IMG/VR virus record: IMGVR_UViG_3300017917_003098
Span: 1-31,107 of that record
Strand: one strand, 5' to 3'
Length of the DNA: 31,107 nucleotides
From: a virus
This document shows positions 264 to 30,751 of this stretch, in pieces; the first letter of the stretch is position 1, and each line of letters opens with the position of its first letter. Made by a program: the position numbers and the translations under genes. The notes beneath the pieces were generated by a model. The model was not told the DNA's origin, made no database searches, and was given only the letters and a program-made list of their open reading frames with translations.

Positions 264-1592
264 TCAACTATCAGACAAAAGATCTAATGCACTAATTGCA
301 TTAGCTGCTACTGATTCAATAGTTTCTACTGGTTCTTCAGTAATAGTTAAGGTGGGGTAATTAATCATTAATTGTGTAAACCCTGTATTAGGTCCAAAAC
401 GATTTTTCATCATACCCATTCTAATAATATTAAGTTCTCTATCTTCTTCTTCCTGCCAGATGCTCATCATTGCATCTGCAGTAGCAGCCATACCAATACT
501 CTCACCTACTGTTTCAACACCTGGATTAGATACATTATAACCAGTTCTATTTAACTGAGTAGCTGATATAACTGGTACGTTAAACATATAACTAAGAGCT
601 CTTACTTGTTCAGTAACATGTTTAATTCTTTCATAACTATTGTTACCAATAGGAGAATGTAAGAGGTTTATATAATCTAATACAATAGCATCAAATTTTA
701 CCCCTTGCGTTTGTAACTTCTTTAAAAATGCACCTAATTGTATAGGCGTTAATGTGCTAGGTGGAAACTCTTTGATAAGAACTCTACCTTCATGCTTATT
801 AAAGAACTTCTCTACACCACCTTTAATATTACCAGTCTCATGCTTGAGACTATTCATTGGTATACTGGTAATGCTAGAAGTTAATCGTCTAGCATAAATT
901 AATTCACTCATTTCAAGAGTGATAAGTATAACAGTTTTACCTTCTTTAGCAATATTAGTTGCTACATTACCCAGAAATATAGATTTACCTATATTAGTCT
1001 CACCTGCAAATATATAAAGAGATCTACCATTTGCTAACCAACCACCATCTAGTTTCTCATCTAACCATTTCCAACCAGTAGGGATAACCGGTCTTACTGT
1101 TTCTAAATCTTGTATTAATGAATCAACATCACGTAGAAGATCAATACCAAGAGTCTGTGTGAGATTAATACTACAGCTCTTTTCAAACTTTTCTAGAATC
1201 TCAGCAGTATTAATTGTGTTTGAAGTTATTTTATCAACAACTTCAGTCATCGTATAGAATACAGACTTCTCTTTTAAGAATTGCTCTGTATTAGTATACA
1301 ATTCATCATCATTAAAATTTCTATCTACTTTCTGTATTTTATTGAGAGCATTTTTAAAACTCTCTTTATATTCATTAGTATTACAATAGCTTAAGATTTC
1401 ATTCTTATTAGGTACTGTATTACGCTTACTGAAAAATACACTGATAATATTAAAGATATTCTTATAATCTTTATCTTTAAAGTAATGTGGTTTGATATAA
1501 TCTACAATCGAAGCCAGATACTTTTGATCTGTCATCGATTTATAGAAAATAATCGTCTCAAAATTATCTAAATCTAACGTTAAATTTTTCAT
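264..1592 (-). CDS. Replicative DNA helicase, DnaB/T4 gp41 type
   Basis: This 442-residue protein has an N-terminal helical domain (about 1-150) and a RecA-like C-terminal motor. Visible motifs are Walker A GETNIGKS (197-204), a catalytic Glu in TLEMS (about 227), Walker B AIVLDYINLL (302-311), SATQLNR (343-349) and a likely arginine finger in MKNRFGPN (near 398). It should act as a ring hexamer unwinding DNA 5'-3' at the phage fork and coupling to primase. The length matches T4 gp41 (475 aa) and DnaB (about 470). Its ATG overlaps the stop of the upstream amidotransferase gene as ATGA (1589-1592), which suggests translational coupling. The C-terminal tail after about 425 is acidic and may be a partner-binding peptide. 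Confidence 0.92.
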   Translation of the reverse strand: MKNLTLDLDNFETIIFYKSMTDQKYLASIVDYIKPHYFKDKDYKNIFNIISVFFSKRNTVPNKNEILSYCNTNEYKESFKNALNKIQKVDRNFNDDELYTNTEQFLKEKSVFYTMTEVVDKITSNTINTAEILEKFEKSCSINLTQTLGIDLLRDVDSLIQDLETVRPVIPTGWKWLDEKLDGGWLANGRSLYIFAGETNIGKSIFLGNVATNIAKEGKTVILITLEMSELIYARRLTSSITSIPMNSLKHETGNIKGGVEKFFNKHEGRVLIKEFPPSTLTPIQLGAFLKKLQTQGVKFDAIVLDYINLLHSPIGNNSYERIKHVTEQVRALSYMFNVPVISATQLNRTGYNVSNPGVETVGESIGMAATADAMMSIWQEEEDRELNIIRMGMMKNRFGPNTGFTQLMINYPTLTITEEPVETIESVAANAISALDLLSDS

Positions 1593-2284
1593 TCAAGAGT
1601 AAAAAAGTGCGAATTAGCATTAAACCCTGACATAGGTATAAACTTATTAATTGCTTTATTAGTACTTTGAAGCAACATAAAAATCTTCTTTTCAGGTACT
1701 TCAACCATATCACCTACTTGCACAGATGAGAATTCATCATCTTTATAAAATAATGTACTACTCAATCTGCATAGAAAGAAAGTATAAGTGTATGTATTAT
1801 AGATCCAAGTACTAAATGTACCGTCTAATTCACTAAATGTATGTTTAATAGCTTCTATATCAGACTGTTTACTATGATAATCTAACAATCTTGGTATAAT
1901 AGAACTATCAACATTAGAAGAATGATCAGTAAAATTATATTTTTGTTTGAGATCTTCAAAATTAGTTAATACACCATTATGTGCTACTACCCATTTATTA
2001 TGTATAAAAGGATGAATTGAAGCTTCAGTAAATCTATCTACACCAGTTGGAGCTTGTATATGACCTACAAAATAGGTAGGTTGTTTATCACTAAATTGCT
2101 TTAATGATTCTAAACCTTTATGTATATCATTATCTTTAATAATGGAATAATTATGAAATACACTAGTATCTTGGTGTAAACCATATGCAGCTAAACAACC
2201 TATTGAAAAACTACCTCGTTGTTTATTTAACTCATAGAGTTTATAAAAATTGTCTAAATTACTTGATCCAAAGATCGCGCACAT
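1589..2284 (-). CDS. Class II glutamine amidotransferase (stand-alone GAT domain)
   Basis: The 231-residue protein begins MCAIFGSS, so the catalytic N-terminal nucleophile Cys2 is exposed after Met removal, as in PurF, GlmS and AsnB. Other family marks are GHIQAPTG (74-81; an Arg is usual where Gln stands), HPFIHNKWVVAHNGVLTNF (about 91-109) with the HNG oxyanion segment, and VDSSII (about 126). It releases ammonia from glutamine for a partner synthetase, but no synthetase domain is fused to it. The nearest ATP-dependent amidating enzyme is QueC, about 800 bp upstream on the same strand. GAT-QueC fusions are known in Crenarchaeota and in phages carrying archaeosine-like DNA bases, so this may be a split version. 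It could instead serve another amidation reaction. Confidence 0.85.
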   Translation of the reverse strand: MCAIFGSSNLDNFYKLYELNKQRGSFSIGCLAAYGLHQDTSVFHNYSIIKDNDIHKGLESLKQFSDKQPTYFVGHIQAPTGVDRFTEASIHPFIHNKWVVAHNGVLTNFEDLKQKYNFTDHSSNVDSSIIPRLLDYHSKQSDIEAIKHTFSELDGTFSTWIYNTYTYTFFLCRLSSTLFYKDDEFSSVQVGDMVEVPEKKIFMLLQSTNKAINKFIPMSGFNANSHFFTLE

Positions 2285-2327
2285 ACTTTTATGATAAAGA
2301 CTTATATTTAAAGTTACAAGTAAACAA

Positions 2328-2333
2328 TAAATA
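2328..2333 (+). promoter_or_regulatory. TAAATA box 5 nt before the acidic protein at 2339
   Basis: TAAATA is followed by TTTTC and ATG (2339). It is one of a set of boxes with the same spacing. Confidence 0.35.
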
Positions 2334-2338
2334 TTTTC

Positions 2339-3124
2339 ATGGCCAAATCAGACAGTCAACTCATTTTTGAACAGTATTTCCACTCAATTACTGATATAGT
2401 GGAAGAAGCAAGAGGTAGGAAAAAACAATTTTCAGAGAGAGTTAAACAAATTATAGAAGACCCTAAGACTGGTGAAAAACGTTTGGAGTCATATTATGAA
2501 ATGATGCAAAGAATTAGACGCCAACAGTTAATGAAACAAGCTGATGCAGAGTATGAAGCAGAAAAAGCTGCTGAAGCAGGTGAGGCCACACCTGAAACTG
2601 AAGCAGAAGTTGAATCTGAAGTTGAAACACCAAAAGAAGTAGAAGTTAAAGCAGAAGAACCAAGTGTTGAGCCAGATGAAGATGTTGATATTGATGTATC
2701 AGCAGGTCCTATTGAAGATGTAGGTAGTTTTAATTTTAATGCAACACTTACAGCTGGTGATTTAGCAGATAAAGCCCCTTCAGATGGTATGTCTCAAGAT
2801 ATTATTAGATATGTTGAAGATACACCAGCTACAGGTCAAGAAATTGTTGATTATCTTGTTGGTAAAGGTGTAAATGAAGCAGATGCAAAAAATAAAGTTG
2901 CAAGTTTAGCAATGCTTGACATCTTAAAATTCTACTTTAGTGGTGAAGAAAAACCGGTAAAACCAAGTATAATTGATTTACCGGATATCGATGATGAAGA
3001 TAGTGGTGATGGTGAAGATCTTGAAGATTACGAAGATGCTTTAGGTGATTTACCAGAAGTAGAAGATGAAGACTTACCTTTAACTGATTACTCAGAAGAA
3101 GATTTACCAGCTGATGAACTGTAA
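2339..3124 (+). CDS. Acidic phage protein with possible winged-helix segment; function unknown
   Basis: The 261-residue protein starts MAKSDSQLIFEQYFHSITD. Its LIFEQYF resembles the start of the protein at 27249 (LTIFQEYFD). Residues 20-70 are basic and helical. Residues 70-125 are a Glu/Pro/Val-rich low-complexity linker. Residues 150-200 (DIIRYVEDTPATGQEIVDYL and after) look like a small winged-helix or three-helix unit. The last 50 residues are strongly acidic. The acidic tail suggests a virion or scaffold-like role or a protein-binding tail, but I do not recognise the family. It is the only plus-strand gene in the first 14 kb and separates the amidotransferase gene from queC. Its end overlaps the end of queC by 37 bp. 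TAAATA lies 5 nt before the ATG. Confidence 0.7.
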   Translation: MAKSDSQLIFEQYFHSITDIVEEARGRKKQFSERVKQIIEDPKTGEKRLESYYEMMQRIRRQQLMKQADAEYEAEKAAEAGEATPETEAEVESEVETPKEVEVKAEEPSVEPDEDVDIDVSAGPIEDVGSFNFNATLTAGDLADKAPSDGMSQDIIRYVEDTPATGQEIVDYLVGKGVNEADAKNKVASLAMLDILKFYFSGEEKPVKPSIIDLPDIDDEDSGDGEDLEDYEDALGDLPEVEDEDLPLTDYSEEDLPADEL

Positions 3125-3858
3125 ACTATCTCTTTACAGTTGTGTTTAACCCAAACCTTGTTAAGATCCTGTCTATATTGGATAGGATCTATATAGCCTG
3201 CGTCAATAAACCCTTTAATACGTAAACTGCTACTAACACTTTCAGCATCAGCAAGTGTATCACCACTATAGCAAGTATAAGTATCACCAAAATTAACACC
3301 CAATTCAATACCCTTTAATATAATATTCTTTTTAGACATATTAATTAACGGTGTCTCCACATTAATTTGAATAGATCTATTAAGAGATAACAGTTTATTC
3401 AAATAATCTCTAAATTCATTACTAGAGTCCCAATAACCAGCTAAACTATCTGCTTGAGCTGAACCATGCCAAATAGTATTAATATTTTGAGCTTCAGCTA
3501 AAGAAGCTAATATACTCAAAAACATTAAATTACGATTAGGTACATAACTAGCAGGTTGTGCTTCACCCATTACATCTTTGACTTTAGGTGTATCAATAGA
3601 TGTATTAGTTAATGAACTAGTTGGTGCAATCTTTTTAATAAAACTAACATCAATAGTTTTAAAAGTGAAAGATTTATTAGGATATTTAGCTCTTACTTCC
3701 TCTTTTTGTCTAATAGCACAATCGTATTCTCTCCATAAATGTCTTTGTTCGTAATTAAAAAATACACCAAATACACGGTTATATTGTTGTGCTGCCATAT
3801 GAAGCAACACAGTAGAGTCCATACCACCACTTACACCTAATACAACACCATCATTCAT
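3088..3858 (-). CDS. queC: QueC-like 7-cyano-7-deazaguanine synthase, with altered zinc motif
   Basis: The 256-residue protein has the PP-loop SGGMDST (10-16), which binds ATP, plus the QueC-typical YVPNRNLMFLSILASLAE (105-122), WHGSAQADS (130-138) and ETPLINMSKKNII (168-180). QueC converts 7-carboxy-7-deazaguanine to preQ0 through an amide intermediate, using two ATP and ammonia. Canonical QueC ends with a zinc site built from SC, then PCGxCxxC. Here only the first Cys (TYTCYSGD, about 196) is clear; the other positions read TLADAESVSSSLR, with no cysteine. The fold is retained, but the zinc site is probably lost or rebuilt. Length is near that of the family (about 230). It lies 30 bp downstream of the carbamoyltransferase gene on the same strand. 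The start has an A/T-rich leader and no Shine-Dalgarno. Confidence 0.88.
   Translation of the reverse strand: MNDGVVLGVSGGMDSTVLLHMAAQQYNRVFGVFFNYEQRHLWREYDCAIRQKEEVRAKYPNKSFTFKTIDVSFIKKIAPTSSLTNTSIDTPKVKDVMGEAQPASYVPNRNLMFLSILASLAEAQNINTIWHGSAQADSLAGYWDSSNEFRDYLNKLLSLNRSIQINVETPLINMSKKNIILKGIELGVNFGDTYTCYSGDTLADAESVSSSLRIKGFIDAGYIDPIQYRQDLNKVWVKHNCKEIVYSSSAGKSSSE
3117..3141. terminator. Hairpin at the convergent gene ends (possible weak bidirectional terminator)
   Basis: AACTGTAAA (3117-3125) and TTTACAGTT (3133-3141) form a perfect 9-bp stem with a 7-nt loop. The stem includes the stop codon of the plus-strand gene (3122-3124) and lies inside the end of queC. Neither strand has a clear run of T after the stem, so termination would be weak. 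The position at a convergent junction is what suggests a terminator. Confidence 0.35.
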
Positions 3859-3888
3859 ATAATTATGATATAAATTTATATAGATTGT

Positions 3889-5460
3889 TCAAGATTTTTT
3901 AACAAGAATATTTTCTAACACCACATAATCCATTTGTGTTTTATCTAAAACAGATAAAGCATCTCTATAAGTATTCAAAATAGGTTTACCAGCTAAATTA
4001 AACGATGTATTCAATAATACCCCATGACCGCATATTTTACTTACTTCAGTTAATACATCATATAACCAAGGATTTTGTTCTCTTGTAACTGTTTGCACTC
4101 TAGCAGTTCCATCAATATGAGTAATTGATGATAGCTTTTCTCTCCATTCTTGTTTAACTTTAGGACAGAAAAGCATGTGTTTACATTCACCTTCCCATTC
4201 AAAATAAGTTGAAACATCTTCTAATCTTACAACAGGTGCAAATGGTCTATACCATTCTCTATTCTTAACTTTCTTATTAAGAATATCTTTCATTTCCGGA
4301 AATGCTGGATTACACATTATACTTCTATGACCCAATGCTCTTGGACCATGTTCACATCTACCCTGTACCACACCAACAATCATACCTTCTTTAAATAAAT
4401 TAGCAACCATTTTAGGTGTAGCTACTTGTGTAATTCTAGTTTCAACAATTTCAGGTAATGTATATTTATCGAATACTTCCACACCACCATAGGTAATATC
4501 TACTGGTGTAGATGGTTTAGTAAAGTCTAACAACTGACCTAAAGCAATACCACAATCACTACTATTAGGTGCAACAAAGAGCTTACGGTTAGGAAACATT
4601 TCCTTTAACTTTTGATTAAGAAGAATATTCAAACCACATCCACCTGTTAAGATAATTGGATAATTATACTTTTCAAAGTATGGTGTAGCAATTTTTAAGA
4701 AAATGTATTCAAAAACCTTTTGTGATGTAGCAGCTAGATTGTAGCCTACTTCACCGGTGAGTCTATTATTTTCACTAAAACTTAAACCAATACGTTCACA
4801 CAGCTTTTTAATTTTAGTGTGGTAAGTTTCACCACATGGTTTAGATAAATAGAACTCAATCATTGCTGGTTCCCATTCTGGTACTGATTTACCAAAATTA
4901 CAGAGACCCATAATTTTACCACTATAAACTAAATTACCATCACCAATCCATTCTTGCTTAATTGGTTCAATGTAGTGTGCAAAAATCATGTAAGCAAACC
5001 CAGCATCCAACAAATGATTACCAACTTGTGTAATACCTTCTTTTCTATTTGCAGTATACACATTAAAGAAACCATCATCACCACCACCATCGAAAGAGAA
5101 AATAAGAGCGTCGTCGTAATCTGTTTGATAATACGACGACGCTGCATGTGCTCTATGGTGTGTAGTTTTTACAATTTTCTTAGCAGGAATAAAGTCCTTA
5201 AATGCAGTTGTTACATTATTATGTGTAACATCGGTATTATTATGTACCAATGTGTCAACTGGAAACTCAACCTTAAGTTCGTTTTGTAGATACAAAAGAG
5301 CTGCTTTAAGCCCAAATTCTCTATTTTTAGCGGCCTTATATTGAGCGAGTCCTAAATTCTTACTATTAAAAAATCTTTCAAATTCTAAAACGGTGTACTT
5401 ACCATCTTGTTCAATTGCTATTCCACCGTTATGAGAACCGTAAAAACCGATATTAACCAT
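3889..5460 (-). CDS. Carbamoyltransferase, NodU/CmcH/TobZ family
   Basis: The 523-residue protein has the Kae1-like fold marks of this family: GFYGSHNGGIAI near the start, HHRAHAASSYY (101-111) with the metal-binding HxxxH, FSFDGGGDDG (121-130), LTGGCGLNILLN (271-282), GRCEHGPRALGHRSI (367-381), REWYRPFAPV (401-410) and LLNTSFNLAGKPI (482-494). These enzymes make carbamoyl-adenylate from carbamoyl phosphate and ATP, then transfer the carbamoyl group to a hydroxyl or similar acceptor on sugars, antibiotics or, in some phages, modified DNA bases. Length is slightly below the usual 550-600. It lies between uvsX and queC on one strand. That placement suggests a nucleotide or DNA acceptor rather than a surface sugar, but this is inference. 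TAAATA lies 5 nt before the ATG. Confidence 0.88.
   Translation of the reverse strand: MVNIGFYGSHNGGIAIEQDGKYTVLEFERFFNSKNLGLAQYKAAKNREFGLKAALLYLQNELKVEFPVDTLVHNNTDVTHNNVTTAFKDFIPAKKIVKTTHHRAHAASSYYQTDYDDALIFSFDGGGDDGFFNVYTANRKEGITQVGNHLLDAGFAYMIFAHYIEPIKQEWIGDGNLVYSGKIMGLCNFGKSVPEWEPAMIEFYLSKPCGETYHTKIKKLCERIGLSFSENNRLTGEVGYNLAATSQKVFEYIFLKIATPYFEKYNYPIILTGGCGLNILLNQKLKEMFPNRKLFVAPNSSDCGIALGQLLDFTKPSTPVDITYGGVEVFDKYTLPEIVETRITQVATPKMVANLFKEGMIVGVVQGRCEHGPRALGHRSIMCNPAFPEMKDILNKKVKNREWYRPFAPVVRLEDVSTYFEWEGECKHMLFCPKVKQEWREKLSSITHIDGTARVQTVTREQNPWLYDVLTEVSKICGHGVLLNTSFNLAGKPILNTYRDALSVLDKTQMDYVVLENILVKKS
5107..5143. repeat. Strong GC-rich inverted repeat inside the carbamoyltransferase gene
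   Basis: AGCGTCGTCGTA (5107-5118) and TACGACGACGCT (5132-5143) form a perfect 12-bp stem with a 13-nt loop. It lies in the codons for the segment between the HxxxH motif and the conserved Asp. It is much richer in GC than the surrounding sequence, and the triplet GTC/GAC recurs inside each arm. Confidence 0.7.
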
Positions 5461-5464
5461 GTAG

Positions 5465-6559
5465 TTATTTACTCACACCATACTTATAAGCCACTGCTAA
5501 TTTCTTATCCAACTCTGGAATAATAAAGTTCTCCCAGAAGTCAATATCCTTAGACCAGTTCTTATAGTAACCAATCTTATCTCCTTGCTTATACTTTCCA
5601 TCTTCAGAAGTAATACCAATCTGGAAAGTAGGTCCATTAGAGATAAGAACACCATGATTAACTGCCATATCTCGCAAACCACTATACTTATCCAAACCTG
5701 TCTTGAAGTTAAGATATAGTTCAGCTTGCAAGTACTGAGGAATAAAACGATTCTTAACAGTCAAGAATCGAAGCGTTTTACCAGAATAATTACGTGCTTC
5801 AGCAAGCATTTCATCCTTCTCATTACTTTCATCTTGCTTTTCGTTAGATGCAGCAATTTGACAGAGAACACTAGCAAGATAGGTAGGTCCACTACCACCA
5901 GCCTGGTTCTTTACCAATGAAGGGTACATTGCAGTAGGATCACCATAAACGTGATTACTAAACAATACAGTAGTACCAGCTGCAGCAGCCTTGTAAGTAA
6001 TAAGTCGCATCATCGCCTTCAAAGTCTTAGCTCGAAGACCCATATCTGATGCAGACTTATCCTTTTCAACGTCATCAATTTCTTTCTGAGAAGCAAGGTT
6101 ACCAAGTGAGTCTACGCTAACGATAAACTTACCTTGCAAACCCTTCTCAACAATGCTATCCAAAAAGGTGGATAATTGATTACGGCATTGCTCAACAGTA
6201 TAAACAGGTACATATTTAGTACGTTCTGGATCCAGACCGACATTAATAGCACTCTCTTTATCAACAGCAAACTCAGTATCAAAGATCACAGGCATCAATC
6301 CGAGTTCACGTTGTGCAATACCGAGAATCTTGTTGATAATAAATGTCTTACCAACACCAGATTCACCAGAAAAGCCTACAATACGGCCTTTCGGTACACC
6401 ACCACCCTTAATTCTACCGCTAATGATAGCATTTAGCGCATAGCACCCAGTGTCATACCAGGTATCAACATTAGACAAGGCACTCTCACTCAAGAAAGTA
6501 GCCTCAGGATTTAATTTATCAAGACGTTCAAAGACGTCATTTAGGTCATTTTTACTCAT
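5465..6559 (-). CDS. uvsX: UvsX-like RecA-family strand-exchange protein
   Basis: I take the start at 6557-6559 (MSKNDLNDVFERLDKL), giving 364 residues. It lies just after the upstream stop at 6561-6563 and matches family length (T4 UvsX 391). Longer starts up to 6616 would run into the upstream gene. Motifs are Walker A GESGVGKT (65-72), catalytic Glu in DTEFAVD (about 96), Walker B FIVSVDSLGN (145-154) and an L2-like region from SNHVYGD to QAGGSGPTYLAS. It forms filaments on ssDNA and drives strand exchange for recombination-dependent replication, working with UvsY, UvsW and gp46/47, all encoded in this window. Codons are richer in AAG than in the accessory genes, perhaps reflecting high expression. 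Confidence 0.9.
   Translation of the reverse strand: MSKNDLNDVFERLDKLNPEATFLSESALSNVDTWYDTGCYALNAIISGRIKGGGVPKGRIVGFSGESGVGKTFIINKILGIAQRELGLMPVIFDTEFAVDKESAINVGLDPERTKYVPVYTVEQCRNQLSTFLDSIVEKGLQGKFIVSVDSLGNLASQKEIDDVEKDKSASDMGLRAKTLKAMMRLITYKAAAAGTTVLFSNHVYGDPTAMYPSLVKNQAGGSGPTYLASVLCQIAASNEKQDESNEKDEMLAEARNYSGKTLRFLTVKNRFIPQYLQAELYLNFKTGLDKYSGLRDMAVNHGVLISNGPTFQIGITSEDGKYKQGDKIGYYKNWSKDIDFWENFIIPELDKKLAVAYKYGVSK
5466..5471 (-). promoter_or_regulatory. TAAATA box 5 nt before the carbamoyltransferase ATG
   Basis: On the minus strand TAAATA is followed by ACTAC and then ATG (5460). The box overlaps the uvsX stop codon. It matches the core of the T4 late promoter (TATAAATA), and the same spacing recurs before several other genes in this window. 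Confidence 0.35.
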
Positions 6560-6560
6560 A

Positions 6561-6920
6561 TTATTCATCAAAAAGCTTAACAACCTTGGGCTGCTGGACT
6601 TGCTGTTGAGGTACAACAGGACTTACAGCCTTTTGGTATTGAGCTTTAAGAGCATCGCTAAGATTTACACCACCATCAATACAGACAGTGGTAGATCTTA
6701 CTGGAAACTTCCACGTGGTCTTTTCGACTCCAGGTGCAAGTAATTCCTTAAAAAAGTATGGAATGGTCTGAATTTGAACTTGACCATTTTGTGCTTGATT
6801 AACAACAATAATAGCAGGGTTCTTTACCATCATAAACTTATTATCGGGGGTGTAACACTCAATTACACCAAGAATATAACGACCTGCATTATCAACGAAT
6901 AGGCTAATTTGTTCTTCCAT
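6561..6920 (-). CDS. Small LSm/Hfq-like phage protein (tentative)
   Basis: The 119-residue protein lies between polymerase and uvsX. Its core, from GRYILGVIECYT through FMMVKNPAIIVV to QVQIQTIPYFF, reads as successive beta strands with a KNP turn. This resembles the LSm-like proteins I recall from marine T4-like phages, which also have a Y-x-x-x-x-SP-V-x-P segment like QYQKAVSPVVP here. The C terminus is Gln/Pro-rich and ends KLFDE, a short acidic tail that could bind a partner. LSm proteins bind RNA; a small ssDNA- or RNA-binding role in the replication cluster is possible. The fold assignment is by eye and could be wrong. It ends just before uvsX begins and follows polymerase by 30 bp. Confidence 0.6.
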   Translation of the reverse strand: MEEQISLFVDNAGRYILGVIECYTPDNKFMMVKNPAIIVVNQAQNGQVQIQTIPYFFKELLAPGVEKTTWKFPVRSTTVCIDGGVNLSDALKAQYQKAVSPVVPQQQVQQPKVVKLFDE

Positions 6921-9572: not shown

Positions 9573-10772
9573 TCAAGGATTGATTTTATTAAGAAGTTTC
9601 CTCTCTGGGGATCTATAAGAATGCAAATACATCTCTACATATTTACCAATGTTATCAGGATTCTCTAAGAATCTAGATTCAGCAAATGATCTTGCAGCTG
9701 TTGCAGCTCTCTTATAAACACCTTCCTTAAGAGTATTATCAATTTGATCAATCATTTCATCACCAGTCTTAAACCTAATTGGTGCATTTTTATATGTTTC
9801 AATATCTTGACAAACAACTGGAATACCGTAACAAGAACCTTCCAAATATTTCAAATCACTCTTACATTTATTAAAAGTGTTATCAGCTAATGGAGCAATC
9901 ATCATTTGTACATTTAAATTGTCTATTGTATATGGATAATCCATAATTTTAGACCAAGGTACAAACTCAATATCACCAGATTTTACATAAGGTACAAGAG
10001 TGTGAGGTAAAGCACCCATAAACACCCACCTATATTTCTTAATTGTTTTAATAATAGCATCATTGACGTGGAAGAAGTCATCACGTTGTTTAATTCTATT
10101 ATCTACATCAAAATGTGCAGCAGAACCATTATAAAGTATACGAGGACGTCTCTTATGATCGTTTAAATTTTGAACAAGTTGATCTTTATCATAAAAATTA
10201 CCCATCCAGAAACGAGGAACATAATTAGGTAATACAGTTATATTTTGATTAATGAGTTTAGATCTATAATAATCTCTCATGTAATCACACGTAACTGTAA
10301 TTTCATCACACATTTCCATTATTTCTTGTGCTGAATTACGTATATCATCACTGGTAAATGCTGATTTAAATTTGTTATAATCGGGGATGTCTTCTCTAAA
10401 CACTACATCATCAATCTCATATACAATTTTAAAATTAGCTCTAGGCTGAATAGCTTTGAGAAACTTAATAAACTCTAATTGATGAGGGGAAGCTTGACGC
10501 TGGATGCGTATAGTTTTCATTAAACTATATAATGATTCATCCTTAGCCATTAAAATACTGCTAAAAGAAAGTAAATCACCTCTGAGATTCATTATCATCT
10601 CAGGCCAAATTAATCTCCAACACCCGCAACCACCATGATCAGCTAAAAAATTATACACTTTTGGTGTATTATTAATATTGGACTTAGGACTCTGAACTTG
10701 AGGTGGTGGTTGCGGGGCAAAAACGGGTCTAAAAGGTGCAGCAAATGGTGAATTTGCCATGGTATTTAACAT
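9573..10772 (-). CDS. GT-B fold glycosyltransferase (group 1 / GT4-like)
   Basis: The 399-residue protein has an N-terminal Rossmann-like half with YEIDDVVF (about 130), a segment common in phage GT4-like enzymes. Its C-terminal half has RPRILYNGSAAHFDVDN (about 208-224), RWVFMGALPH and FNKCKSDLKYLEGSCYGIPVVC. The last matches the donor-binding N-x-CKS-x-LK-x-LE-x-x-x-x-G-x-PV motif of GT-B transferases. It should move a sugar from a nucleotide-sugar to DNA bases, a virion protein or a host glycan; the acceptor cannot be read from sequence. A start four codons later (MANSPFAAPF) is also possible. The first 35 residues are Pro/Gln-rich. It is encoded 17 bp downstream of the gp46 gene, within the replication cluster. 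Confidence 0.82.
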   Translation of the reverse strand: MLNTMANSPFAAPFRPVFAPQPPPQVQSPKSNINNTPKVYNFLADHGGCGCWRLIWPEMIMNLRGDLLSFSSILMAKDESLYSLMKTIRIQRQASPHQLEFIKFLKAIQPRANFKIVYEIDDVVFREDIPDYNKFKSAFTSDDIRNSAQEIMEMCDEITVTCDYMRDYYRSKLINQNITVLPNYVPRFWMGNFYDKDQLVQNLNDHKRRPRILYNGSAAHFDVDNRIKQRDDFFHVNDAIIKTIKKYRWVFMGALPHTLVPYVKSGDIEFVPWSKIMDYPYTIDNLNVQMMIAPLADNTFNKCKSDLKYLEGSCYGIPVVCQDIETYKNAPIRFKTGDEMIDQIDNTLKEGVYKRAATAARSFAESRFLENPDNIGKYVEMYLHSYRSPERKLLNKINP

Positions 10773-14367: not shown

Positions 14368-15522
14368 ATGTATAAATCAAACACAAGAATCGTCACTTGC
14401 GTTTATTATTCTCACCGCGACAGCGAAATGGGTGGTCGTAGTTGGCCGATAGAGTATTATAAATGGACACTTTTCAATATTTTCAATTTTGGATTACCAA
14501 TAACTTTGTTTTATGATGGTGAATCTGAGTCATTTAATAAACTAACAAATATCATTAACGATTATAAAGATAATATCAATAAAGAATTAGATATTCATCT
14601 TTTACCTCATGATTTAAAAACCCATCCAAAATACGATAAAATAATCAATAACCGTAAAACTATTCTAGATGAGTTAAATAATGACAAAGTAAATTTCCCC
14701 CACGGTTTTAACTGGGCTAGAAATGAAGTAATTTGCCATACAAAATTAACATTCCTCAAACAGGTATTGGAATTATACACTCATATTGATAATGTAGTGT
14801 GGGTTGATGCAGGTATTACCCACTGGGGATTGAATCCACGTTGTTATGGTGGTATGGAGATTAATGGTTCACAACATACCTATACTGATTTTTATCCGTA
14901 TAATAATAACAATATCTTCACTCCAAAAATTGGTGAAGGGTTCAATGCATTGTTAGAAAAACATAAAATGTTTTTCATCGGTCATCACAATAACTGGTAT
15001 TCACAAGATTTTCAGCGTATGAATGCTGATTATGTTTATGATAATCCTGAATACAAACAATTAATCGATCCACATGCAGATTGGGTAAAGAATAGTTTTA
15101 ATAGGGTATTAAGAGTAACCTATGAAAATGTACCAAGAGCTAAGTATGTAGTACATAATGGATCTAATGAAGATGTAAATACTCACGGATCACCAATTAA
15201 TATTTTTGGTAATCAGATAGTTGGTGGTGTAATTGGTGTAAGTAGAGAAAAATTCAATCACTTATATGAATTTTATAATAACTACTTGACATATATTTTT
15301 AATCACGATCATAGAAGTTTATTTACTGAAGAACCTATTTTATCATTATATTACTGTATTTTTGAACCTTATATGATTTATTTCAGTGATTGGAATCACA
15401 ATATATCAATTACACCACCTAACCCGTGTACAACAGAAGGTAAATTCGAAAAGAGCTTTTATAATGTGTGGATAGATATTTCTAACGTATCCACTTCTGA
15501 TTTATCAACAACTCATCAATAA
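14368..15522 (+). CDS. HtrL/YibB-like (WlaTC-like) putative glycosyltransferase, copy 1
   Basis: The 384-residue protein begins with IVTCVYYSHRDSEMGGRSWP and carries FGLPITLFYDG, RNEVICHTKLTFLKQ and VVWVDAGITHWG. These match the HtrL/YibB family, whose members include Campylobacter WlaTC and are thought to be glycosyltransferases, though biochemistry is sparse. The V-D-A-G stretch is where a DxD-like metal or sugar-nucleotide site is expected. A paralogue at 26284 shares TRxxVTCxY, YDKI, CHTKLxF and WxDAGIT. It is transcribed away from the gp47 gene. Its end overlaps the lipoprotein gene by 41 bp. The role may be to decorate DNA, a virion protein or host glycan. Confidence 0.72.
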   Translation: MYKSNTRIVTCVYYSHRDSEMGGRSWPIEYYKWTLFNIFNFGLPITLFYDGESESFNKLTNIINDYKDNINKELDIHLLPHDLKTHPKYDKIINNRKTILDELNNDKVNFPHGFNWARNEVICHTKLTFLKQVLELYTHIDNVVWVDAGITHWGLNPRCYGGMEINGSQHTYTDFYPYNNNNIFTPKIGEGFNALLEKHKMFFIGHHNNWYSQDFQRMNADYVYDNPEYKQLIDPHADWVKNSFNRVLRVTYENVPRAKYVVHNGSNEDVNTHGSPINIFGNQIVGGVIGVSREKFNHLYEFYNNYLTYIFNHDHRSLFTEEPILSLYYCIFEPYMIYFSDWNHNISITPPNPCTTEGKFEKSFYNVWIDISNVSTSDLSTTHQ

Positions 15523-21349: not shown

Positions 21350-22045
21350 ATGGTTTTTGATTTTCATAAAAACTATATATTTCAGCATATTTTCAAGACT
21401 GCAGGTACTACTATCAAACAAACTCTGCATTCTTATAGAATACCTGATCAAAAGATCTTATCTATGTGGAGTGAAGATAGATCTTATAGAGCATATAATA
21501 ATGCTTTACCTTATGAATTTGGTAATGAACATATTTCATTTGATCAATTTCATGTTATTTGGCCTTATTTAGATTTTAATAAATTTTACAAGTTTTGTTT
21601 TGTTAGACATACTTATGACTGGATAGTAGCAGGTTATAAGCATTGTTGTGATATATCATATTTTAAGAACTTTCCTGAAGGACCAGTAAGGGATGAGCAA
21701 ATACAAAGATTTACGTTTGATTTTTATGTTAAAAATTGGGTTATTACTGATTTAACTCAACTCGATTTCATGAAATTTCAAGGTAAAGTAATTGTAGATA
21801 AAATTGGTAGATTTGAAAACTTGCAGGAAGATTTTAACCAGATAGTTGATACTATTGGTTTACCTAGAAAGCAGTTAGATAAGCATAATTCTAGTGAACG
21901 TAGAAATTATGCAGTAAAAGATACTGAATTAAAAGCTAATCAGCATTATTCCTTGTGGTTTAATGATGAACTTTTGCATTTAGTAAATGAGAGATTTAAA
22001 GAAGAGATAGAATATTTTGATTTTAAATTTGTGGATAAACGTTAA
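21350..22045 (+). CDS. Sulfotransferase-like protein
   Basis: The 231-residue protein has IFQHIFKTAGTTI (10-22), matching the PAPS 5'-phosphosulfate loop of carbohydrate sulfotransferases (HxxKxAGTS). It has FCFVRHTYDWIVAGY (82-96), matching the 3'-phosphate motif FVRxPYDRxVS, and a later IGRFENLQEDFNQI segment also typical of the family. These enzymes move sulfate from PAPS to a sugar or protein hydroxyl. The HTYDW variant departs slightly from the common RNPYDR. With several glycosyltransferase-like genes in the window, a sulfated sugar is a possible product. Its 3' end overlaps the next, opposite gene by 4 bp. Confidence 0.78.
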   Translation: MVFDFHKNYIFQHIFKTAGTTIKQTLHSYRIPDQKILSMWSEDRSYRAYNNALPYEFGNEHISFDQFHVIWPYLDFNKFYKFCFVRHTYDWIVAGYKHCCDISYFKNFPEGPVRDEQIQRFTFDFYVKNWVITDLTQLDFMKFQGKVIVDKIGRFENLQEDFNQIVDTIGLPRKQLDKHNSSERRNYAVKDTELKANQHYSLWFNDELLHLVNERFKEEIEYFDFKFVDKR

Positions 22046-24291: not shown

Positions 24292-24725
24292 AAAATTTTA
24301 ATAACCAAATTAACGTATTCTTAAAAGAATACCTTGGAGACGTAATTGGAAACACCGAAGAAATATATATCGATGGTGTGGGTGATACTGTATGTAAAGT
24401 AGACACCGGTAATAATGCCTTTAATGTAATACACGGTATAGATGTAAAACCAAATGGTAAAGAAGTAGAATTTACCACTATTGGAGATAAACGTATTAAG
24501 AAAGAAATATTAGATAATGTGGTAATTAATATTGGTTCAGGTATTAAAGAAGAAAGACCAGTTATATTATTCAATGTAAAATTACATGGAAAAGAATACC
24601 CAGATGTAAAGTTCACACTCAGTGATCGAACTGAGAATACTGAACCTGTACTTCTGGGTAAGGACTTCTTATCTACCTTAGGTAAATTAATCGATATTAA
24701 TAAAGATTTTACTTCACAGCATTAA
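24288..24725 (+). CDS. Retropepsin-like aspartic protease (RimB/zinc-protease type fold)
   Basis: The 145-residue protein has VCKVDTGNNAFNVIHGI (about 35-51), with the catalytic DTG. RPVILFNVKLHGKEYPDVKF (about 90-109) follows, and then FTLSDRTENTEPVLLGKDFL. This is the order seen in single-domain retropepsin-like proteins and the Asp_protease_2 / RimB-type family (DTGA, then ERPVV, then LLGRxFL). Such proteins act as dimers with one DTG each. The start MKNFNNQINVFLKEYLGD resembles the tag of the neighbours, so the protease may be carried into the capsid or act in assembly. Its end overlaps the opposite gene by 17 bp. Confidence 0.72.
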   Translation: MKNFNNQINVFLKEYLGDVIGNTEEIYIDGVGDTVCKVDTGNNAFNVIHGIDVKPNGKEVEFTTIGDKRIKKEILDNVVINIGSGIKEERPVILFNVKLHGKEYPDVKFTLSDRTENTEPVLLGKDFLSTLGKLIDINKDFTSQH

Positions 24726-25179
24726 AAGCTGCAATTAATATATCTTCAATAGGTGTTTCTAATGCTTTCTTAGTATCAGAAATACTATCATAATCACCAT
24801 AAACATCATCATCTTCTAAACGATCATCTAAATGATTGGTGGTGGTAGGGTTATGGTTATGGTCTACTTTAATGTCAATAAGAATTAAAGCAAGAAGTGC
24901 ATGTGTATGTTTTTCAGTATGTGATCTCTTTACAAAATCTTTAATCATCGCTTTTGTAAAAGCAGAAGAAAGATCCTGAATTGGATTCGGTAGATTGATA
25001 TAAGCATGAATTGCAAGATAATTCGATGCAATTGTAGCACAATCACGTATTACATTATATGCTGATTTAACATTAATTGTAATACCTGTATCTGGCTCTT
25101 TAGCAGCTTTTAAAGCATGTTTAAGAAGATTAGCTTCTTTAAGAGTAGATGCACTTAAAATACGTTTTTCAAAGTCCAT
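24709..25179 (-). CDS. Unknown protein encoded directly after folE2
   Basis: The 156-residue protein is mostly helical, with MDFEKRILSASTLKEANLLK at the start. It has a His-rich segment (TEKHTHALLALILIDIKVDH, about 87-106, then NHNPTTTNH) and an acidic stretch (DDRLEDDDVYGDYD). It begins 1 bp after folE2 ends on the same strand, so the two are almost surely co-transcribed. I do not recognise the family. The His cluster could bind a metal, and a role in the deazaguanine pathway or as a regulator of FolE2 is possible but unsupported by motif. Confidence 0.6.
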   Translation of the reverse strand: MDFEKRILSASTLKEANLLKHALKAAKEPDTGITINVKSAYNVIRDCATIASNYLAIHAYINLPNPIQDLSSAFTKAMIKDFVKRSHTEKHTHALLALILIDIKVDHNHNPTTTNHLDDRLEDDDVYGDYDSISDTKKALETPIEDILIAAFNAVK

Positions 25180-25180
25180 A

Positions 25181-26227
25181 TTAACGAGGTACGTGGATTA
25201 AGCTATTATAAATTTCACGAGGTACACCAGGACGGAAACCATCATGAACACCTTTAACAATTACTGCAATAGCATCATGACTATGCAAGCTTTCTTGATG
25301 AGATGCAACAACCTTAAAGTCTTTAATACGTGAATCTTCATTCAGTCTTGCATAGATCAAACGAACTGCATCTTCAACAAACTTAAGATATGAACCATTA
25401 AGTTCAGCAAATGCTTGTTCATCTTCACGTTTAACAACTACTTGAGTTTCAGTCTTAAGTGCATCAAGGCACATTTCATGAATGTCTTCAATCCAGATCA
25501 TTTCATCGAATTTAATACTAATACGTGCAACGCTACGCTGACTATGAGGCACTACTGCACGATTACGATATTTTTCAGCATGTTGAGATAACTCATACGA
25601 GCAAGGACATGCAGAACTATAGACGAAATCAAAATGAATATACTTGTTAAGATTACCATTCTGATCAATATCTCCTTCGAGAGTAACATCATAATATTGA
25701 TAACCGATATTATCACTACGCAAGCTCTTTTGCTGAATAGGGTAACTAATTTTCATCATGATACGAGCATCAAATGAATTAAGCTTACCTTTATAATGAT
25801 TAAGAACATCTTCAATAATACCGATTGAAAATGTCTTATCCTTATAATCATAGAAGCTACGCATAATACGGCTCATATTAATACCTTTCTTATGAGCTTC
25901 TAAGCTTACAGTACCGGTTACACTCGTTTCAAGAGTGATAACATCACCATTTCTACACTTATAAGTGAGAGGTAAACGGAAATTATGAATACCAACTTGC
26001 TGAATTGCAACAGCAGCACCTTGAATTAAGCTACTCGGACCATTCTGCAAATCAGGTAAAGTCTCAATGTACTTATCATCAACTTTAAGCTGTATATCAT
26101 AGGTTCTAATAGGAGAAATATAGCTTGATGCATATGCATCTCCTAAAATACTCTTTGCTAACTTATCTTTATCACCACTAAGTTCATCTACTTCGTCTAG
26201 CCACTCGTATTTATTTGAATCAGGCAT
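25181..26227 (-). CDS. folE2: GTP cyclohydrolase FolE2 (type IB)
   Basis: The 348-residue protein has the FolE2 marks GIHNFRLPL (79-87), SLEAHKKGINMSR (108-120), SSACPCSYELS (204-214) with the metal/catalytic Cys region, VPHSQRSVAR (226-235) and ASHQESLHSHDA (308-319). It converts GTP to 7,8-dihydroneopterin triphosphate, the first step of both folate and 7-deazaguanine synthesis. The type IB enzyme can use metals other than zinc. Length is a little above bacterial FolE2 (about 260-300). It diverges from the HtrL-like gene at 26284. An A/T-rich TATAAATA lies directly before its ATG. Confidence 0.93.
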   Translation of the reverse strand: MPDSNKYEWLDEVDELSGDKDKLAKSILGDAYASSYISPIRTYDIQLKVDDKYIETLPDLQNGPSSLIQGAAVAIQQVGIHNFRLPLTYKCRNGDVITLETSVTGTVSLEAHKKGINMSRIMRSFYDYKDKTFSIGIIEDVLNHYKGKLNSFDARIMMKISYPIQQKSLRSDNIGYQYYDVTLEGDIDQNGNLNKYIHFDFVYSSACPCSYELSQHAEKYRNRAVVPHSQRSVARISIKFDEMIWIEDIHEMCLDALKTETQVVVKREDEQAFAELNGSYLKFVEDAVRLIYARLNEDSRIKDFKVVASHQESLHSHDAIAVIVKGVHDGFRPGVPREIYNSLIHVPR

Positions 26228-26271
26228 ATATTTATATTAAGAAATTTCCTTTAAAACTCAAGAAAAACCTG

Positions 26272-26277: not shown

Positions 26278-26283
26278 ATTTAC

Positions 26284-27231
26284 ATGACAGACACAGTTTT
26301 AGTAACTTGCCTCTATAATGTCAAATACACCCAGCCAATTGGTGGTAGAGGATATCCAATAATTACATATTTTCCATCACTTCAAAGTATCTTTGCAATT
26401 AAGTTACCAGTCATTATTTACACAGCAGAAAACGAAGTTGAAACAATTGAGAACTTCTGTAAACGTTTTAATTATGAAAATTATGAGATTAGAACTCATG
26501 ATTTATCCACATACAGACATTATGATAAGATATTATCTTTAAAAGAACAATACGTTAACCCTGCATATAGATATTTTCATAGATGTGAAGTTTTATGTCA
26601 TACTAAACTACACTTTGTTGAACAAGCATATAACAACAAATGGAATTGTAAGAAAGTAGTGTGGATAGATGCAGGTATAACTGAAAACAGTAAAGTACCT
26701 GTAAAATACGGTGGTAGAGAACTTGGTGAAGGTAATATTATATTGAAATATGAATATTCACTTTATCCAAATAATCAGGAAAGCTTGTTTAAACCTGAAT
26801 TAGGAACTAAATTAGATGCATTTGTGGAGAAAAACAAGTGGTTCTTTGTTACTCTTAACAGTCCATTTGATGGTTATAACACACCATGGTTGGAAACATT
26901 AACTAAACAAGCAAAATTGCTATGTAATGTAGATGATATAACAAGTGCCAAGTGGTTAGTGGGTACTTTATGGGGTGGTTATAAGGAGCACTTTGATGAG
27001 ATCTATAGTTTATACAATAAGATGGTGGATAACACTATAAGTGAACCGAGATTTCCTAAAACTGAAGAGATGTATTTAAGTGTAGTCAATTATATACTTA
27101 AAAAACCAAGTTTATACTTCGATACATGGTATGGGGATGTCCCTGGAGAGATGGAATACATGGCTGATTTATGGAAATCTAACCCTGAATTTAAATCATT
27201 TTATAAGATATTTCGCGATATTCTTGAATAA
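26284..27231 (+). CDS. HtrL/YibB-like (WlaTC-like) putative glycosyltransferase, copy 2
   Basis: The 315-residue protein starts MTDTVLVTCLYNVKYTQPIG and shares LPVIIY, HYDKIL, RCEVLCHTKLHFVEQ and VVWIDAGITENS with the protein at 14368. It is about 70 residues shorter. The family (HtrL/YibB, with WlaTC of Campylobacter) is probably a glycosyltransferase. The two copies may act on different acceptors or at different steps. It is transcribed away from folE2, and the following gene starts 17 bp later. Confidence 0.7.
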   Translation: MTDTVLVTCLYNVKYTQPIGGRGYPIITYFPSLQSIFAIKLPVIIYTAENEVETIENFCKRFNYENYEIRTHDLSTYRHYDKILSLKEQYVNPAYRYFHRCEVLCHTKLHFVEQAYNNKWNCKKVVWIDAGITENSKVPVKYGGRELGEGNIILKYEYSLYPNNQESLFKPELGTKLDAFVEKNKWFFVTLNSPFDGYNTPWLETLTKQAKLLCNVDDITSAKWLVGTLWGGYKEHFDEIYSLYNKMVDNTISEPRFPKTEEMYLSVVNYILKKPSLYFDTWYGDVPGEMEYMADLWKSNPEFKSFYKIFRDILE

Positions 27232-27248
27232 ATATAATTAACACAATT

Positions 27249-28082: not shown

Positions 28083-28151
28083 ACATTTGAACCAGGTTAT
28101 CTTAGTAGAGAAACACCTAAATGGGTACCTAATCCTAACTTAAATGCAGCA

Positions 28152-28313: not shown

Positions 28314-28330
28314 TTTTTACAGTGAGAGTG

Positions 28331-28342
28331 CTATTATAATAG
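28331..28342 (+). promoter_or_regulatory. TATAAT-containing palindrome just before queD
   Basis: CTATTATAATAG is a perfect 12-bp palindrome. TATAAT (28335-28340) inside it lies 5 nt before the queD ATG (28346), the same spacing as the TAAATA boxes. No convincing -35 is seen at the right distance. Confidence 0.3.
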
Positions 28343-28345
28343 TGT

Positions 28346-29017
28346 ATGCATTATTTTAGTACAAAAACTATTGAGTTGGGTTCATGCGCATTTAGACAAC
28401 CGTTTGCTAATTCTCATTGCAAGTTTCTTCATGGTTATAGATTAGTTGCAAAGTTTATTTTTGCATGTAAGAATCTTGATAATAATAATTGGGTTGTTGA
28501 TTTTGGTGGTCTTAAGGAACTTAAGAGCATTCTTGAACATCAGTTTGATCATACCACTGTTGTTTGGGAAAAAGACCCACAGATTGAACTCTTTAGATTG
28601 CTTAATGAACGCGGTGTAGTGGATTTGCGTGTTATGCATGATGGTGTTGGTATTGAAAAGTTTGCTGAATATTGTTTTGAGGTGGCTAATAAGTATATTA
28701 AGGGTGTTACTAATGATAGGTGCTGGGTTGAGAGTGTCGAGGTTTGGGAACACGATAAGAATTCTGCATTTGTTAAGAATGCAATCCCCGCATTGAGTGT
28801 TGTATGTGACACTAAAAAGGTCGAATCATTTAAGGATAATGTAGTGCTTTTGAAGGAAGAGAAGCCTGCTATTGAGGCTCCTAAGGAAGAAGAGAAGCCA
28901 AAGGTTAAGAGACGTGAACCAATTCCTGCTCCTGTTGGTAATGTTGTTGATAAAGAGAACAACCTTAGCTTCAAGGCTGCATTAGATAAGCTCAACTGGG
29001 GTAACCCTAATAAGTAA
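28346..29017 (+). CDS. queD: QueD-like 6-carboxytetrahydropterin synthase with C-terminal extension
   Basis: The 223-residue protein has SHCKFLHGYRL (23-33), matching the catalytic Cys and HG of the QueD/PTPS family, VVDFGGLK (49-56), FDHTTVV (68-74) and EVWEHDKNSAFV (about 132-143). QueD makes 6-carboxy-5,6,7,8-tetrahydropterin from dihydroneopterin triphosphate, the second step to preQ0. The usual second His of HGH is Tyr (HGY), and the first zinc His is not where expected, a variant I recall in a marine bacterial and phage subfamily. The last 80 residues are Lys/Glu/Pro-rich, unusual for QueD. Lys is mostly AAG, unlike nearby genes. The small gene after it starts at the stop (TAATG). Confidence 0.82.
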   Translation: MHYFSTKTIELGSCAFRQPFANSHCKFLHGYRLVAKFIFACKNLDNNNWVVDFGGLKELKSILEHQFDHTTVVWEKDPQIELFRLLNERGVVDLRVMHDGVGIEKFAEYCFEVANKYIKGVTNDRCWVESVEVWEHDKNSAFVKNAIPALSVVCDTKKVESFKDNVVLLKEEKPAIEAPKEEEKPKVKRREPIPAPVGNVVDKENNLSFKAALDKLNWGNPNK

Positions 29018-29223: not shown

Positions 29224-29926
29224 TAATATACTTTAACAATTCACTTCTAGTAATATCATTATTAGTAAAGGTGAAGCTAAGTATACCATTATTTCTACTT
29301 TCTTCACTGGTAAATGCATTATAGATACGTTTAAAACCTGATTTACCAATATCACTTTGCATTGAATCACCTATTAAGAAGAGTTTACAATTATTACCAA
29401 AACGTGTAAGAATTGTAATAAGTTCATTAAGTTCTAAATTTTGAGCTTCATCAACAATAACAGCTACATCTTTAAATGTTGTACCACGTAAGAAATTTAC
29501 CGGTAAGCATTTAATAAGTTCGTCACTGAGAAGATTATTGGTATTTGCCATACCAATTAATTCATCGCACTTTTCAACCATTGGTAAACTCCATGGTTTG
29601 AATTTACTTTCTTCATCACCAGGTAAGAACCCCAATTTCTTAGAAGCGCTTTCCACTACACTTCTAATGTAGATGATTTCTTTTATTTGTTTTTGTTTGA
29701 GTAATAATAATGATACATATGCAGAAAGATATGTTTTACTTGAACCTGCTGGTCCATCTATCATTAATATTTTTGATTGTTCACTCAAACTTTGTTGTAC
29801 GAAATTTTTATGTGTTTCATTCAACTTATATTGTTGATCAATTTCGTAATTCAGTTCTAAACTAACATCAACAATTTTTTGTTTTTGTTTTTTAGACTTC
29901 ACTATTTTAAGAGTTTTGTGTCCCAT
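29195..29926 (-). CDS. phoH: PhoH-like ATPase
   Basis: The 243-residue protein has Walker A DGPAGSSKT (57-65), IYIRSVVESASKKLGFLPGD (85-104), Walker B VAVIVDEAQNLE (154-165) and the downstream LFLIGDSMQSDIG (182-194), the standard order of PhoH. PhoH proteins are common in marine phages. They are ATPases with proposed RNA helicase or phosphate-starvation roles, not settled. Length matches the family (about 240). It is minus strand, between the queD operon and queE, and its end overlaps the small gene after queD by 29 bp. Confidence 0.93.
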   Translation of the reverse strand: MGHKTLKIVKSKKQKQKIVDVSLELNYEIDQQYKLNETHKNFVQQSLSEQSKILMIDGPAGSSKTYLSAYVSLLLLKQKQIKEIIYIRSVVESASKKLGFLPGDEESKFKPWSLPMVEKCDELIGMANTNNLLSDELIKCLPVNFLRGTTFKDVAVIVDEAQNLELNELITILTRFGNNCKLFLIGDSMQSDIGKSGFKRIYNAFTSEESRNNGILSFTFTNNDITRSELLKYIIKVVENLKS

Positions 29927-29977
29927 CTACATATATTTAATTTTTAACTTGAATACTCCATGTTCCTATTTTAATAT

Positions 29978-30751
29978 ATGTGTATGGATGATATTTCCTA
30001 CGACGAGAATGTCGATACATTGTTTCTTTCTGATGATAAAGTTTTTTACACGCTAGAAGGTGAAGGAAGGTTAGTAGGTCAACCTTCAGTATTTATGCGT
30101 CTTGCTATGTGCAATCTTACTTGCATAGGGTTTAAATCTCCTGATTCACCTTTTGGTTGCGATTCTTATTCTTCTTGGTCGGTAAAAAACAAATATACCT
30201 TTAAGGAAATCTATGAAGAGTTTTTTCTTAAAACCGGGTATGATAAAAGACTTCAAAATAATGCTATTTTAAAAATTACCGGTGGTGAACCTTTAATTCA
30301 GCAAAAACAAGTTATTAAGTTTATTACATATTTATTTAATAAGATTGGTCAAAGTTTTGCTATTGATTTTGAAACTAATGCTACAATTAAACCAGATAAT
30401 ATTTTTATAACTAAATTTTTAGAAGTAACGTTTACCACTTCACCTAAATTGGCTTCAAATGGTGACCCTGAAAGTAAACGTTATGTTCCTGAAACACTTA
30501 AATGGTATGCTGATAATAATTCTGATTTCAAATTTGTAGTTCAAAATGAAGGTGATGTAAAAGAAGTTTTAGAAAAGTATGTAAATAAATTTCACATATC
30601 ACCGATTAATGTTTGGTTAATGCCTTGTTGTGGGTCTAGATTGGAATTGTCTCAACGTTCTGCTCAAGTAGCTGAATGGTGTAAAGAATATTGTTTTAAC
30701 TTTAGTCCAAGACTGCAATTAGTTATTTGGGATAAAGCATTAAAAGTGTAA
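29978..30751 (+). CDS. queE: QueE-like radical SAM 7-carboxy-7-deazaguanine synthase
   Basis: The 257-residue protein has FYTLEGEGRLVGQPSVFMRL (23-42), matching the QueE opening (FxSxQGEG...G.P.xFxR). Radical-SAM-type cysteines are at C45, C49 and C61 (RLAMCNLTC, then PFGCDSY), and TGGEPL (101-106) binds SAM. The family makes 7-carboxy-7-deazaguanine from QueD product. The third Cys is 11 residues after the second, longer than the common Cx3Cx2C, though QueE has several known spacings. A start at 29984 (MDDISYDEN) is also possible. The next gene starts in its stop (TAATG, 30749-30753), so the two are coupled. Confidence 0.88.
   Translation: MCMDDISYDENVDTLFLSDDKVFYTLEGEGRLVGQPSVFMRLAMCNLTCIGFKSPDSPFGCDSYSSWSVKNKYTFKEIYEEFFLKTGYDKRLQNNAILKITGGEPLIQQKQVIKFITYLFNKIGQSFAIDFETNATIKPDNIFITKFLEVTFTTSPKLASNGDPESKRYVPETLKWYADNNSDFKFVVQNEGDVKEVLEKYVNKFHISPINVWLMPCCGSRLELSQRSAQVAEWCKEYCFNFSPRLQLVIWDKALKV

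Follow-up and report, generated by a model that had tools for sequence, protein, structure and literature searches.

Why should a phage encode enzymes for the 7-deazaguanine precursor preQ0 together with a stand-alone glutamine amidotransferase, and which base, if any, would reach its DNA? The question is raised by the IMG/VR virus record IMGVR_UViG_3300017917_003098, the whole of which (31,107 bp, hereafter the window) was compared with about 100 related contigs from the virus collection, designated by G and L numbers. The record has no end repeats and is a fragment of a larger phage genome, with a T4-like gene set comprising a DnaB/gp41-type helicase, UvsX, a family B polymerase, gp46/gp47 and a UvsW-type helicase. 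We propose that it is part of a T4-like environmental phage genome and contains one of the two loci that make up a DNA-modification system. First, FolE2, QueD and QueE would produce 7-carboxy-7-deazaguanine, which QueC, supplied with ammonia by a separately encoded glutaminase (Gat), would convert to preQ0. Second, at a locus that lies beside the capsid gene in relatives, QueF would take preQ0 to preQ1 and a DpdA3-type transglycosylase would swap guanine in DNA for the deazaguanine; the same locus encodes a kinase-like nucleoside triphosphatase (NTPase) and usually an N-acyltransferase predicted to cap the aminomethyl group. The phage of the window would possess this second locus outside the fragment, and its DNA would bear a preQ1-derived 7-deazaguanine as a protection from restriction. 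We place the probability of this scheme as a whole at roughly two in three.

The preQ0 genes and a split Gat/QueC pair

An earlier note on this DNA had described a complete preQ0 route, and FolE2, QueD, QueE, QueC and the stand-alone class II amidotransferase are indeed complete open reading frames (ORFs) exactly where it had placed them (Table 1). The route stands as far as gene content goes, with all four enzymes encoded, but QueC and QueD deviate from the textbook motifs, as discussed below. The E-values of the five predicted pathway genes are far beyond chance, the gene order around them is preserved in dozens of relatives, and this includes the order folE-queD-phoH-queE. QueE gave no Pfam match; its three cysteines are spaced as CX3CX11C and the TGGEP motif is present. 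As a separate observation, FolE2 and FolE1 (L037:1192-1848) substitute for each other in related phages, next to the same small gene (24709-25179 in the window, L037:1881-2417).

In Gat, the nucleophile Cys2, R23, H102-N103-G104 (HNG) and D126 are invariant in 26 relatives, and the nearest PDB structure to its AlphaFold2 model (predicted local distance difference test, pLDDT, 91) is the glutaminase domain of GlmS. A scan of the virus collection with a Gat profile recovered at least 542 relatives of the protein; among the best 80 of these, queC lies upstream of gat at all 51 loci with enough upstream sequence. Throughout the window's group the pair sits in a replisome operon, which in relatives runs gp46–glycosyltransferase–gp43–uvsX–queC–(opposite-strand insert)–gat–[tailoring gene]–glycosyltransferase–gp41, the insert being a different ORF in different relatives. 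In the window gat overlaps the start of the gp41 helicase gene. Both domains of the Gat-QueC protein of phage 9g, namely an amidotransferase domain with Cys2 and a QueC domain, are present in the window, but as two ORFs with an opposite-strand ORF between them rather than as a fusion. The split pair is not unique to the window, because it is also found in Vibrio phages: ORF392 of nt-1 (PHROG 12378, annotated 'unknown function'; L050:15099-15707), directly after queC, is an unfused Gat, and in phage 2.275.O queC is followed by an unfused gat at 335680-336294. As the pairing is stable, recurs in unlike phages and is known elsewhere as a fusion, we infer that the two proteins act together, with Gat most likely being the ammonia source of QueC.

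A seemingly broken Gat in G032, G035 and G042 proved to be an artefact of start-codon choice, the frames being intact from an Ile codon. Three intact Gat frames (L245:6001, L179 and L181) start with an Ile codon ahead of the catalytic Cys, which suggests the use of a non-AUG start (AUU/AUA-type).

A putative DpdA3 at a second locus in relatives

No DpdA-type transglycosylase is encoded within the 31,107-bp fragment, in agreement with the earlier note; this absence means little, since the record is a 31-kb fragment. A search of ten relatives with PF01702 (tRNA-guanine transglycosylase) gave no match, a result that is uninformative because Pfam also misses the DpdA of 9g and the DpdA2 of nt-1. 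Phmmer searches with nt-1 DpdA2, 9g DpdA and ORF468 of 2.275.O found no relative in G001-G010, and a search for the DSGG motif of these transglycosylases overlooked DpdA3, whose sequence reads DNS. In G008 (230 kb; nearly complete, to judge from the capsid gene, where it overlaps G006) and in the 128-kb G013, both of which have the preQ0 genes, a 277-residue protein adjoins queF. It shares 45% identity with the protein named 'DNA guanine transglycosylase' in Flavobacterium phage immuto, and equally with a gene of Campylobacter phage CP220, and has more than 50 invariant residues in an alignment of 18 sequences. Its AlphaFold2 model (pLDDT 88.7) best matches tRNA-guanine transglycosylases (Foldseek E 1.5e-9). 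On this alignment and model we call it a putative DpdA3-type DNA transglycosylase, a name reportedly due to Cui et al. 2023.

The cassette gp5-like–DpdA3–[tailoring]–NTPase–QueF–gp23 is kept in more than 50 loci, and a scan of the virus collection gave over 500 DpdA3 matches. Several observations tie this cassette to the locus of the window. G013 holds queC, gat, folE, queD, queE, queF and DpdA3 on a single contig. Twelve of the 17 DpdA3 records have a QueC that is 47-57% identical to that of the window, and the remaining five are among the shorter records. DpdA3 is encoded by G008, G013 and most large relatives, and the Gat records of greatest length, at 221 and 230 kb, are among those that have it. 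The cassette of G013 begins about 30 kb past queE and the window stops 0.36 kb past it, so that the absence of DpdA3 from the window is expected and offers no evidence for a nucleotide-level route. The earlier note had left the choice between a transglycosylase elsewhere and such a route; the former is borne out in relatives and the latter is not needed. Its proposal that a 7-deazaguanine is placed in DNA is probably correct, given a DpdA3-type enzyme in relatives of the same group, and we infer that the phage of the window itself has DpdA3 and QueF. A scan with the window's QueE as query found no contig overlapping its right end. The metagenome that yielded G001 also contains two contigs with DpdA3 (L130 and L168); these were considered as parts of the G001 genome and set aside, as their G+C and neighbors differ or they do not overlap it.

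Further genes accompany the cassettes. A thymidylate-kinase-like P-loop NTPase (AAA_28; e.g. L047:7825-8511) directly precedes QueF in nearly all of them and in immuto. A member of the IMPDH/GMP-reductase family, which perhaps recycles the guanine freed by transglycosylation, is found in the DpdA3 cassette or near gat (L065:11402-12361; also L198, L216, L238 and L246). L132 (13446-14765) and L150 (12566-13891) have an additional gene, for a radical SAM/SPASM protein, that separates the NTPase gene from queF.

QueF and a possible exchangeable acyl cap

The nature of the base depends on QueF. QueF-like amidinotransferases have the same catalytic Cys and Asp as the reductases, but use ammonia rather than NADPH (PMC5485725). 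The QueF of the relatives' cassettes aligns end to end with the solved NADPH-dependent QueF 3bp1 (E 3.6e-42), and its two-domain form, with an ESKSxKLY stretch and an SNC...QPDWG site carrying the catalytic Cys and Asp, is that of true QueF; the homologue in 2.275.O likewise has QueF_N and QueF domains. By its sequence the protein looks like a true nitrile reductase, and the route would accordingly run via preQ1, the expected base being preQ1 or a derivative and not an amide or amidine. The phage of the window would likewise convert preQ0 to preQ1, with a queF lying outside the 31-kb fragment, in which none was seen.

Next to this pathway lies a variable tailoring slot. Most relatives have a formyltransferase beside DpdA3 (Formyl_trans_N, above the cut-off in most, with NxH and VDEG visible). 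In the G003/L007 clade it adjoins gat instead. G004, G032, G060 and many others have a GNAT acetyltransferase in the slot beside gat, and G029 has a further GNAT match, a weaker one, in the slot adjoining DpdA3. Among 17 records showing both regions, 14 have only the formyltransferase, three only the GNAT protein and none both (Fisher p=0.0015, a value that ignores kinship). On the Gat tree the formyltransferase label needs five changes, at least four of them forced by well-supported branches, and swaps occur among near-identical neighbors such as G003 and G004. That two different N-acyltransferases have repeatedly replaced each other at a single site, adjoining a preQ1 pathway, points to the same amine as the probable target of both. 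Read from gene context, their chemistry would yield N-formyl- and N-acetyl-aminomethyl-7-deazaguanine. That preQ1 in the DNA of these phages bears an exchangeable N-acyl cap, formyl or acetyl, is a tentative proposal to which we give somewhat less than even odds; it predicts 2'-deoxy-7-(acetamidomethyl)-7-deazaguanine. Cui et al. 2023 reportedly predicted a dPreQ1 formyltransferase, DpdN, with fdPreQ1 as the base, so that the N-formyl base has already been proposed. To our knowledge, N-acetyl-aminomethyl-7-deazaguanine has no prior description as a DNA base.

In the window and G001, gp41 directly follows gat, with neither an acyltransferase nor a second glycosyltransferase between. In these two, and in G002, a NodU-type carbamoyltransferase gene separates uvsX from queC; no relative other than G001 and G002, the closest to the window, has it at this place. 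Members of this family carbamoylate a phage base, 5-hydroxymethylcytosine, and homologues on unmodified contigs adjoin genes such as glycosyltransferases (PMC8670742). The gene of the window likewise has glycosyltransferases nearby. A carbamoyl cap added by this enzyme, encoded beside a zinc-less QueC, is a weak and doubtful candidate. We do not treat the carbamoyltransferase as a proven tailoring enzyme, since its homologues are common in cyanophages and G013 has a distant homologue in addition to a formyltransferase.

Two more observations concern the slot. In L064 (10807-12390) a flavoprotein of the tryptophan-halogenase family (PF04820, E 2e-75) lies inside a DpdA3-formyltransferase cassette, making halogenation of the modified base conceivable. 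A domain of about 115 residues follows the formyltransferase, either separately (L065:12358-12705) or fused to it (L047:6886-7815); it has no Pfam match, and in the fused form matches PHROG 1485.

Zinc-site losses in QueC and QueD

The QueC of the window retains the canonical cluster 1 motifs of PF06508, namely SGGMDS, NYEQRH (YxQRH) and YVPNRN (VPxRN). Canonical QueC also has a C(x)8CxxCxxC zinc site and a YPDC motif (PMC13329287). In comparison with PDB 2pg3/3bl5 and phage sequences, the zinc motif of the window's protein reads C196-D204-S207-S210, with one of the four Cys left, and YPDC is replaced by GYWDS; it is therefore a QueC-type variant without the zinc site and not a canonical QueC. 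The loss is common to the window, G001-G005, G029, G032, G033, G037 and G038, and L069-L081, which make up a separate phage group, have a similar D..S..S form; all four Cys are kept in G006-G010, G013, G030, G031, G034-G036, G041 and G042. FolE2, which is zinc-independent in Bacillus subtilis (PMC5007448), is limited to genomes with the zinc-less QueC (five of seven, as against none of 11 others), an association that is a lead rather than proof because the genomes share kinship. If true, the combination of the two would call the role of zinc in QueC into question. QueD, too, lacks two of its three zinc His across the whole phage group, AFRQ and LHGY replacing xxHR and LHGH; it retains the catalytic Cys and one zinc His (HC..LHG), short of a canonical QueD.

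Alternative explanations

Some points weigh against the two-locus scheme. DpdA, QueF and the acyltransferase are absent both from the window and from its 50-kb relative G001, the loss of zinc ligands from QueC and QueD may point to an altered chemistry, the genes have been placed by homology alone, and no chemical data on any phage of the group came to light. Four other explanations have to be set beside it.

The first is that Gat and QueC jointly make archaeosine (G+) or the amide ADG for insertion into DNA, in line with the amidated or amidine 7-deazaguanine of the earlier note. They are the same two domains, unfused, as the Gat-QueC protein of 9g, which together with DpdA puts dG+ in E. coli DNA (PMC6884629). 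Yet relatives with the same pair keep a two-domain, NADPH-type QueF and an amine-directed acyltransferase beside DpdA3, both of which would be pointless for G+ or ADG, and the pair is retained whatever the tailoring enzyme. We consider this product unlikely and do not favor it; the amidotransferase that led the earlier note to it is better accounted for as the ammonia supply of QueC.

In the second, the genes merely raise the supply of preQ0 or queuine for queuosine in host tRNA and the phage DNA is unmodified, an idea that has been considered for phages with the pathway but without DpdA (PMC6884629) and that would suit the lack of DpdA in the window. It becomes improbable with DpdA3 tied to the pathway across the group, the 221- and 230-kb Gat records included.

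Third, Gat, which has a generic GlmS-like glutaminase fold, might serve another synthetase, for example in sugar amination or with the neighboring carbamoyltransferase, its place beside queC being incidental; the glycosyltransferases and carbamoyltransferase of the window would give it such partners. This is very improbable, as the queC-gat order holds at every locus where it could be read even without the carbamoyltransferase, recurs in the unrelated Vibrio phages, and has its counterpart in the fusion of 9g. Least probable of all is that the base is made into a deoxynucleoside triphosphate and incorporated by the phage DNA polymerase, for despite queC and gat lying in a replisome operon and a thymidylate-kinase-like NTPase in the cassette, DpdA3, with its transglycosylase fold, in that same cassette makes such a route unnecessary.

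Other features of the window

The best identity of the window's family B polymerase to any phage of the named collection is about 32%. Nearly all relatives share with the window a glycosyltransferase gene (9573-10772; PHROG 7162) located between gp46 and gp43. Most of them have a second one (PF13712) after gat, which the window lacks; DNA glycosylation is possible in this group. The genes at 21350-22045, 14368-15522 and 26284-27231 encode a protein resembling sulfotransferases (PHROG 3347) and two proteins that are related to each other at about 27% identity but fall in no known family; they possibly decorate surface glycans or tails. Close to folE, G008 (L037:2426-3532) encodes a TubZ/PhuZ-like protein of the tubulin/FtsZ family, unusual for a T4-like phage.

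Table 1. Genes of the preQ0 route and their neighbors in the window, with the basis of each assignment.
Feature	Position	Strand	Basis and remarks
gp41-type DnaB replicative helicase	264..1592	-	Domain search, synteny; next gene after gat, replisome operon
Gat, stand-alone class II (Ntn-type) glutamine amidotransferase, 231 aa	1589..2284	-	PF13522/PF13537 (GATase_6/GATase_7), E ~3e-8, above cut-offs
Acidic ORF between gat and queC	2339..3124	+ (opposite)	Synteny; other opposite-strand ORFs at this spot in relatives
QueC-type 7-cyano-7-deazaguanine synthase	3088..3858	-	PF06508, 153 bits, E 9e-45
NodU/TobZ-type carbamoyltransferase, between uvsX and queC	3889..5460	-	PF02543 and PF16861 domains, PHROG, synteny
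UvsX/RecA-type recombinase	5465..6616	-	Translation, synteny; upstream end of queC slot
FolE2 (GTP cyclohydrolase IB), CPCS motif	25181..26227	-	PF02649, E 4.5e-73
QueD-type 6-carboxytetrahydropterin synthase, C-terminal extension	28346..29017	+	PF01242, E 6.8e-15; PHROG QueD, E 1.1e-36
QueE-type radical SAM 7-carboxy-7-deazaguanine synthase	29978..30751	+	PHROG QueE, E 9.6e-44; solved QueE, E 1e-5

Relationship to known modification systems

These observations link a widespread and hitherto undescribed group of large environmental phages, with over 500 matches each for Gat and DpdA3, to a full 7-deazaguanine modification of DNA; they account for a split amidotransferase that the annotation of model Vibrio phages lists as unknown, and from the formyl/acetyl enzyme swap a new DNA base is predicted that can be tested for directly. 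Among the phage 7-deazaguanine systems the window is a real, well-formed example whose arrangement is a variant one: the Gat/QueC pair is split and lies in the replisome operon, and relatives have DpdA3 and QueF at the capsid locus and probably exchangeable acyl caps. The fused Gat-QueC of phage 9g and Crenarchaeota combines the same two domains, with catalytic motifs, as part of a preQ0-based route. The window has them as two genes, an arrangement shared with nt-1 and 2.275.O; phage 9g makes dG+ and has no QueF in its cluster, whereas the window's group has QueF and N-acyltransferases; and the QueC of 9g retains the four zinc Cys that the window's has lost. The preQ0 clusters of nt-1/KVP40 and 2.275.O share queC followed by an unfused Gat with the window's group. 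In contrast to it, nt-1 uses DpdA2 and 2.275.O encodes a large protein with a transglycosylase-like DSGGFQ motif, their QueC keeps the zinc Cys, and their clusters lie outside the replisome operon. The cultured Flavobacterium phage immuto 2-6A has DpdA3–formyltransferase–thymidylate-kinase-like NTPase–QueF in the same order as the relatives of the window, which also share a DpdA3 homologue with CP220, but the polymerase of immuto belongs to family A, and no match to the split Gat was obtained in this phage. To cassettes of the immuto type the window's group adds the exchange of GNAT for the formyltransferase. Likewise, most relatives fit the DpdN/fdPreQ1 scheme in having a Formyl_trans_N protein with QueF and DpdA3, whereas others have a GNAT acetyltransferase instead, from which an acetylated base is predicted.

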